From contig NZ_CP094288.1 in assembly GCF_022693705.1 (NCBI RefSeq), positions 1,070,443 to 1,134,442 on the forward strand: 64,000 nucleotides of DNA, in the 5' to 3' direction. How positions within the stretch are numbered: position 1 is the first letter of the stretch; every line of letters starts with the position of its first letter. The position numbers were made by a program, and so were the translations under genes. Shown here in pieces: positions 20,951-54,625 of this stretch. Below the pieces are notes generated by a model. It ran no database searches. It was not told the DNA's origin and was given only the letters and a program-made list of their open reading frames with translations. Origin of the DNA: Infirmifilum sp. NZ. GTDB taxonomy: Archaea > Thermoproteota > Thermoprotei > Thermofilales > Thermofilaceae.

Positions 20951-22094
20951 TCATCCGCCCCCCTCACTTTTCTGAGAGCCCTCTAGCGGGGTCATGACTC
21001 CCCTTTTGGGGCTTTTTAGAAAGAGCTTCGCCGCGTTAGCACAGGCGCCCCAGTCTCTGCTGTGAGCTATGTTGCAGCTGGGGAAGCGGTGGTAGCGTTT
21101 CCCCAGCTCTACCCCCCATGCTCCGCAAACAGGGCACTGCTTCCCAGAGACATTGTCGCTCGGCTGGAACTGCCTCGCTCCATCATAGAGTGCTAGGTTC
21201 TCATGTCTCTCCGCGACCTTCAATAGGGTTCGCTGTAGCTTTGCTCCCCTCAGGCTCCCTCCCCGGAGCACAACTGCTACAATGACGGGGGTGTAGCCCC
21301 GGTCCCTCAGCTTCCTGACCAGATTCCGTAGCTCTCTGAACACGCCCTTAATCCAGTCGTCGCTCACCCTTTGAACCTTCCTCGACGCCCGCCTCGCAAC
21401 CCTCTCGGCGCGCTCCGGCATCAGGCTCATCTTCGCTCTCAACCTCTAGCGATCCTCAGAACCTCCTTCACTGCGTAGTCCTCTCTCCGCAGCTCTTCGA
21501 TAACTCTCTCTTCCTTGAACCTCTGGAAGGCCTTATTCCGGTTGCCCAGCCCGGAGTAGCTGGTCATAATAGCCGCAAGGAGTCTCAGCAGAGTCGTATT
21601 TGGAGGCTTAACCACGCGGTGCGCCAGTAGCCTCAACCCTCCCTTGCAGTGAGTTGCAACGTGAGCCTAATGTCGTCGAATCGCTCCAAGTCCTCAAGCA
21701 CGGGCCCTGGCAGACAGACGGAACGTAGAGCTCGTCCCTCGAGGCGTTAAGCACCTCAAGGGCATTGATTGCGCCGTGCAATATCTCGCCGTTGCCGACC
21801 AATGCTTCTTTTCACGAAGTCTGCGAGACGCCGCCTCTCCGGCCCCGAGGCAGTTTGCCTGGTGTTCTTCGTGGCGAAGGACTTGCTGAGCGGCTTGGGC
21901 TGCCTTAGGCGCCACAGATTTCTAGCGAGGCTAACCAGCTTGAGCCACCTCGACACGCTCTTCCAGACCCCTCTGCTCACTCGACCATCATGGCTAAATG
22001 TGAGAGGGGGTTGTAATCGTTCGCACAAGCTGTGACTAATAGAAACATAGCCCAAAGGCTTTGCTCGAACACCCTCCCGCAATCCCCTCTCCAA
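20951..22094 (-). pseudogene. decayed TnpB-like (OrfB, IS200/IS605-type) relic
   Basis: Fragments of one protein can be read in successive frames on the minus strand. The C-terminal piece (20951-21442) holds a zinc-ribbon CPVCG ... C and the RDWGACANAAK ending typical of TnpB. A preceding piece (21439-21636) joins it through a one-base overlap frameshift. Further N-terminal pieces around 21608-21802 and 21756-22094 need more shifts or cross stops; near 21645 the reading frame changes again. No TnpA, terminal hairpins or target duplication are seen. The N-terminal extent is uncertain, and the element is most likely dead. Confidence 0.6.
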
Positions 22095-22196
22095 GCCCTC
22101 ATGATACAGGGAGTGCGCGGGCCGAACGCGGGAGGAGACAAGGGAAAAACTGAAAAAGCACCATTGCTGGCCTTAAAATGTACGGAAAAAAGAGCT

Positions 22197-34389: not shown

Positions 34390-34404
34390 CAGTTCTACCT
34401 TTAC

Positions 34405-34600
34405 GTGAGCGCTACTCCTTTTCTGCCCCACGGTCCCTTAAACTCGTCGTCACCTTTATCGGCCTCGGGGTCGCCCCATGGGGCTAAGCATCACTCATTA
34501 CAGGCCTGCCCCACGAGGGGCATCCGGGGAGTAGTAGCCGGCGGCCGCCACGCCTCAGCGGCCAACCGCGGGCCGGGCCCAGTGTTGCTAGGCACTTAGT
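34405..34600 (-). ncRNA. candidate GC-rich structured RNA, unidentified
   Basis: This gene-free, GC-rich interval has many nested complementary segments. CCGGC (34538-34542) pairs with GCCGG (34572-34576) and encloses GGCCGC/GCGGCC (34543-34548, 34558-34563). TGCCCC-ACGA-GGGGCA forms a perfect hairpin near 34507-34522. CTACTCC (about 34412-34418) pairs with GGAGTAG (about 34528-34534) around most of the element. AGTG...CACT closes the far end. The minus strand is favoured by a GCTTAAGAT box about 25 bases before the folded part. A TTTTT run at about 34600-34604 would instead suit the plus strand. It does not show the conserved cores of SRP RNA, RNase P RNA, 5S rRNA or tRNA. Confidence 0.45.
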
Positions 34601-34629: not shown

Positions 34630-34686
34630 AGTTCAGCAATCGAAGGTTAATTCACCGCTCGATCGCGAGCTGTTTCATCATCGCCT
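34630..34686 (-). ncRNA. candidate C/D-box guide sRNA
   Basis: On the minus strand there is a box C ATGATGA (34675-34681) and a box D CTGA (34633-34636), exactly 49 bases apart end to end, the usual size of archaeal C/D sRNAs. A weak internal D'/C' pair is possible around TCGA and GGTGAAT. A TATA-like ACTTTTTTGG lies about 25 bases before the RNA start. It runs antisense to the RIO2 leader region. Guide targets were not identified. Confidence 0.45.
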
Positions 34687-54564: not shown

Positions 54565-54625
54565 TCCAGAACTTAGTGAGGGATCTTTGACTTTAAAAGT
54601 TGACTTCGACAAGAGCTCAGAGTCT

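Follow-up and report, generated by a model that had tools for sequence, protein, structure and literature searches.

In the MITEs and other non-autonomous derivatives related to IS605, the ends of the element are kept and tnpB is missing. For ISDra2, according to the part of PMC8612924 that deals with the reRNA, this RNA is made up of the tnpB 3' end, the element's right end and a guide of about 16 nt taken from flanking DNA, and the corresponding part of PMC10097598 has the bases just before the guide pairing about 100 nt upstream. Among archaea, the sotRNAs of haloarchaeal IS200/IS605 elements (Rfam RF02656 and RF02657) lie at the 3' end of tnpB and are treated as omegaRNAs in the relevant section of PMC12558985. 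In addition, the section of PMC11061315 on IS607 TnpB presents the reRNAs derived from RAGATH-18 as a conserved structured RNA downstream of tnpB.

In the present study, we analysed a stretch of 64,000 nt from the genome of Infirmifilum sp. NZ, here called the window, in which an initial annotation had marked a foldable interval next to rio2 as a possible new structured RNA. We found that this interval belongs to a dispersed repeat and is not a unique RNA gene. In our judgement it is probably the right-hand end of an insertion sequence of the TnpB type, and would be the module that gives rise to an omega/reRNA guide RNA. The core of the repeat was taken as the guide-RNA module of a TnpB family because its layout at the DNA level matches the ISDra2 reRNA. 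As in the reRNA and omegaRNA accounts given in those parts of PMC8612924 and PMC10097598, the core is located downstream of tnpB in the same orientation and extends as far as the element's right end, a variable flank follows this end, a short motif stands left of the empty target, and the bases near the putative guide pair far upstream. Unlike the ISDra2 described there, which uses TTGAT, the elements studied here have the motif YRCARS, their terminal helix is predicted to be a plain one, their TnpB is divergent, and the window copy has no tnpB. Like the RAGATH-18-derived reRNAs, as characterised in that section of PMC11061315, the core is conserved, structured and placed downstream of tnpB; it is set apart from them by the absence of an Rfam match. 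Unlike the sotRNAs, it gives no covariance-model match to RF02656, RF02657 or any other Rfam family. The window copy resembles the MITEs and non-autonomous derivatives related to IS605 in being without tnpB, but it keeps the right end only and has no left end. The features of the locus are collected in Table 1.

Table 1. Features of the window, with coordinates counted from its first letter.
Feature	Position	Strand	Basis or remark
Probable solo right end of a TnpB-type transposon: putative omega/reRNA module plus about 20 nt matching the tnpB end	34411..34599	-	Repeat family, alignment; left limit uncertain by a few bases
Conserved core (putative scaffold)	34411..34568	-	Alignment of 28 copies, fold z -2.85
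Covarying terminal helix, 3' strand, and the element's last bases (right boundary)	34411..34418	-	Alignment, covariation
Covarying terminal helix, 5' strand	34528..34534	-	Fold, covariation
Flank beyond the element end; putative guide if RNA is made	34390..34410	-	ISDra2 analogy; boundary from alignment
Remnant matching the tnpB 3' end of copies L003 and L008	34577..34599	-	Alignment of copies
Candidate C/D-box sRNA upstream of rio2	34631..34685	-	Boxes C and D, 16S complementarity, relatives
Empty site	54565..54566	.	tnpB-containing copy inserted here in NZ13 (L095)

In the genome to which the window belongs, a single contig of 1.83 Mb, BLAST returned nine further matches to the query. The core shared by the aligned copies breaks off abruptly at window 34411, where the minus strand reads ...GGAGGAGC. 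The covariance model R1, built from ten copies, gave 12 matches in the Infirmifilum sp. NZ genome, 9 of them at 138-186 bits, and 25 in Thermofilum sp. NZ13, of which 19 scored 118-188 bits; there was no R1 match in 60 other relatives searched with stricter filters. Alignment A3 contains 28 of the 37 model matches, five orthologous pairs included, and partial core matches (3 in the window's genome, 6 in NZ13) stand outside it. In all 28 copies the right boundary is fixed and is followed by differing flanks. The NZ13 locus is 97% identical over 10.9 kb and carries the window repeat copy at the same place. In the flanks of four copies without tnpB (L002, L004, L005 and L006), Pfam gave a single weak and unrelated match (L006:1539-1910, E 0.17), and a SWIM zinc-finger gene is not claimed there.

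Every stem named in the initial annotation exists in the sequence. These are the hairpin TGCCCC-ACGA-GGGGCA at 34507-34522, the long-range stem of CTACTCC (34412-34418) with GGAGTAG (34528-34534), GGCCGC/GCGGCC (34543-34548 and 34558-34563) nested inside CCGGC/GCCGG (34538-34542 and 34572-34576), and GGCCT/AGGCC. As it had also stated, the interval is GC-richer than its surroundings (GC 0.645 at 34400-34599 vs 0.43-0.53 in most adjacent 200-base windows) and no gene overlaps it; a 64-aa ORF on the plus strand was rejected as protein-coding, having no Pfam match and lying across a core whose length differences among the aligned copies are not multiples of three, so that it would be out of frame between them. 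The claim of strong folding needed other borders. The segment 34405-34600 as drawn folds no better than its dinucleotide shuffles (plus strand z 0.28, minus strand z -1.06) and a wider interval gave z -0.19 and -1.11 against shuffles, whereas the minus-strand core at 34411-34568 folds at z -2.85 (1 of 200 shuffles equally stable). The core of the complete copy reached z -2.01 in its minus-strand fold. The minus strand is the favoured one, in line with the hint that had been drawn from a TATA-like box. A TATA-like TTTAA occurs at 34438-34442 (minus strand) and at the equivalent place in other copies, about 20-30 nt before the element end, and GGAGG is present 3' of it, at the element end itself, in most copies; judged by these motifs, the two could form an outward promoter with a ribosome-binding site.

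A tRNA/tmRNA search found none at the interval. The Rfam covariance search of the window gave nothing at the gathering score; over the core there was no match at E <= 5, where C/D snoRNA models alone appear, and these for the neighbour, and near the complete copy just three chance-level matches were obtained. The proposal of a possible new structured RNA was therefore borne out in one part, as the core is structured and outside every Rfam family, and failed in the other, as no independent RNA gene in conserved synteny with rio2 is present in it; the sequence without an Rfam family appears instead to be a dispersed transposon right end. In the comparison of the rio2 gap among relatives, which had been suggested as a check, the core is absent from rio2 loci except that of NZ13. 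Compensatory changes in one long-range helix were found across the 28 copies of the repeat.

The predicted folds of the window copy and the complete copy both have a hairpin at the 5' side, followed by a large domain that is closed by a helix involving the element's final bases. The 8-bp terminal helix that closes the 3' end of the predicted scaffold shows both-side changes at three pairs among the 28 copies (G-C to A-U in 3 copies, U-A to C-G in 2 and C-G to A-U in 2), and 95.5% of its cells are paired. When all helices are counted, pairing is found in 96.0% of 827 cells vs 95.0% in shuffles, and 0 of 500 shuffles reach the real value. The number of pairs with a both-side change is not exceptional, with 42 of 500 shuffles as high, and such counts are inflated by related copies; the RNAalifold covariation terms (1.06 and 0.04) are unfavourable. 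We rate the covariation support for the terminal helix as moderate. The window copy has one double change in common with NZ13, but has lost the outermost helix pair, which is kept in NZ13.

The complete copy (L008/L049) carries an ORF of 401 aa on the same strand, which stops just before the core. Near-full relatives of this protein number one in the window's genome and nine in NZ13, at least three of the latter with stops. Across both genomes, the core lies 11-34 nt 3' of the protein match and on the same strand in 9 of 11 near-full TnpB-like genes; the two genes without a core (L028 and L121) have their left-end context in common and look like one locus. Cores also stand behind tnpB fragments, namely L044 and L052 in the window's genome and one more in NZ13. 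By its domain and profile matches, the repeat-linked protein is regarded as a divergent TnpB-like protein. All 15 homologues gave the TNB domain and 11 of the 15 also guided_TnpB (best 2.3e-9 and 4.8e-9), the profile of the protein family matches solved TnpB structures, and the 401-aa member adjoining the core scores below both the Pfam and the NCBIfam cut-offs. Protein alignment A4 comprised 8 of 11 near-full small-type TnpBs and 7 large-type ones, the rest having stops or no full ORF. D199 and D363 (one RuvC aspartate per end) are invariant, and so are the zinc-ribbon cysteines; the position of the RuvC-II glutamate is V or A beside the invariant D288, and E293 is nearly invariant. Judged from these residues, the RuvC-II glutamate of the protein is atypical and its nuclease role putative. 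A literature search for Thermofilum together with TnpB found no paper.

A larger TnpB subfamily of the window's genome (L031-L038) has a conserved module of its own at the 3' ends of its genes. This module measures about 155 nt, spans the stop codon or lies behind it and has a common end point, and it is a second candidate guide-RNA family. The window also holds a decayed second TnpB element at 20951-22163 (minus strand), with large-type TnpB fragments at 20951-21442 and 21439-21636 behind a left-end-like stretch near 21845-22163.

The right flanks of NZ13 copies were found in the window's genome in 12 of 13 cases at places without a model match. The set of readable empty sites (n=14) was obtained after the rearranged L087 was dropped and the site in the window (Table 1) and two reverse cases were added; in the reverse search 2 of 4 flanks matched, and L100 is a flank without a match. 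Directly left of the insertion point these sites carry the motif Y-R-C-A-R-S (C 14/14, A 12/14, R 13/14, S 14/14), and no conservation was found to the right of the 14 sites. We infer that YRCARS is a TAM-like motif and the putative TAM for TnpB. The right junctions can be placed exactly, save for the few bases that the motif and the element end have in common. Three clean left junctions repeat 5, 8-10 and 11 nt of the target, and a fixed-length target duplication is not supported, since the repeat lengths differ. At other left junctions, 3 to 748 nt of flank are missing or the junction was not found, in six cases because of contig ends. Target repeats of 5-11 nt at the left junctions are not predicted by the plain IS200/IS605 scheme. 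The left ends (L091, L102, L048, L044 and others) share a stretch like GTAGCAATGCTACTTTTTAGTTTTTCCC, the first part of which is a small, changing palindrome.

The window copy has lost its left end and nearly the whole of tnpB, of which about 20 nt remain, and nothing of the element was found further left. It is probably a solo right end, a relic, and might be used by TnpB from other copies. Against NZ13 its core is substituted at 10 of 158 positions and its flank at 4 of 400, which is about six times faster divergence; the five shared full copies combined gave 53/827 in the core vs 16/1999 in the flank. The excess in the core was seen in four of these five copies, the exception being L052/L099 (1/171 vs 2/400). 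For L043/L096, L046/L090 and L048/L105, which stand at the same place in both genomes, the cores differ by 6-13% and the flanks by 0.2-1.5%. Since the nearest core is not the orthologue for L046, L090, L043 and L096, core exchange between copies is suggested; the divergence of cores beyond their flanks at shared sites would fit such exchange or re-insertion.

The most likely interpretation of these results is that a stranded transposon tail makes a guide RNA for a TnpB-type DNA-cutting enzyme. In the intact copies, transcription through tnpB would continue across the module into the flanking DNA. This RNA would fold to a scaffold in which the last eight bases pair about 110-130 nt upstream, and TnpB would bind it. 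The bases just past the element end would then be the guide for the same site when empty, with YRCARS, its left neighbour, as the TAM. Once cut, an empty allele would be more likely to receive the element again by copying. Of the window copy only the module is preserved, tnpB and the left end being lost. That such modules are transcribed, bound by TnpB and used as guides, and that the protein is an active nuclease, is what we infer from the likeness to ISDra2. A further step, to which we give a small probability, is that right ends which stand alone or are truncated on the left are the footprints left by TnpB-guided copying, by which modules would spread and be exchanged without a transposase. 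After the guide RNA had directed the cut of an empty allele, repair would start copying at the right end of the element, proceed leftwards and halt early, and the early-halted copy would join by short matches. Every copy would then be anchored at the right end, the 5-11 nt of target left after the TAM would be explained, and the scaffolds at old sites would be rewritten.

The hairpins could also be read as DNA by a transposase, in which case no guide RNA would be made and the copies without tnpB would be MITE-like and moved in trans. Most of the copies studied are without an intact tnpB, some retain left-end sequence though tnpB is missing, and small hairpins occur at the left ends. However, a transposase site is expected to be far shorter than the conserved core of about 170 nt, which always lies on the sense strand behind tnpB, and the helix with compensatory changes spans about 140 nt, so this transposon end acting at the DNA level appears unlikely. 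The reading that goes back to the initial annotation, by which the metallophosphoesterase-rio2 gap holds an independent RNA gene with a regulatory or housekeeping role, would agree with a structured sequence outside Rfam at the same place in NZ13. It is contradicted by the repeat family with copies at many unrelated places, by rio2 loci of other relatives that have no core, and by a core that diverges faster than its flank, and it is now very improbable.

Target-primed copying from RNA, as at the 3' end of a retroelement, would leave exact right and variable left ends, and both the exact right junctions and the left junctions with unequal target repeats or flank deletions are of this kind. No reverse transcriptase (PF00078, RVT_1) was found in the window's genome, although the control search was positive in 3 of 14 genomes, and the linked protein is TnpB-like; we regard such an origin as highly unlikely. 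The right end of a TnpB-type element with a guide-RNA module is the reading that we prefer.

The conserved non-coding RNA of the gap appears to be a C/D-box sRNA candidate next to the core, which the initial annotation had missed. Rfam sR28 matches 34631-34685 (minus strand) at 22.8 bits, below the cut-off, and similar sequences occur in relatives at 71-80% identity (L009, L010, L013 and L014), with boxes C and D present in the sequences of the four species. Guide 1 is complementary to 16S rRNA over 9 bp (positions 1195-1203 of the organism's own 16S rRNA) and guide 2 over 8 bp plus one G-U (own positions 1272-1280). From these features it is likely a dual-guide C/D-box sRNA that would guide rRNA modification. 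In L014 the candidate lies upstream of rio2 and the core is absent; in L017, also without the core, the gene before rio2 ends beside a weaker match (67% over 40 nt). Because the sRNA-like sequence and rio2 occur in relatives without the core, the core was most simply inserted between older neighbours.

These findings indicate that a foldable, gene-free interval can turn out to be the end of a mobile element, and that the conserved RNA of the rio2 gap would be the neighbour of that interval and not the interval itself. If the proposed identity is true, the hyperthermophilic Thermofilaceae would have an uncatalogued family of TnpB guide RNAs with a readable target motif and scaffold, the nucleases of which would be directly testable. 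Furthermore, insertion sites that are shared between strains, with scaffolds that differ more than their flanks, would make RNA-guided copying testable by strain comparison.
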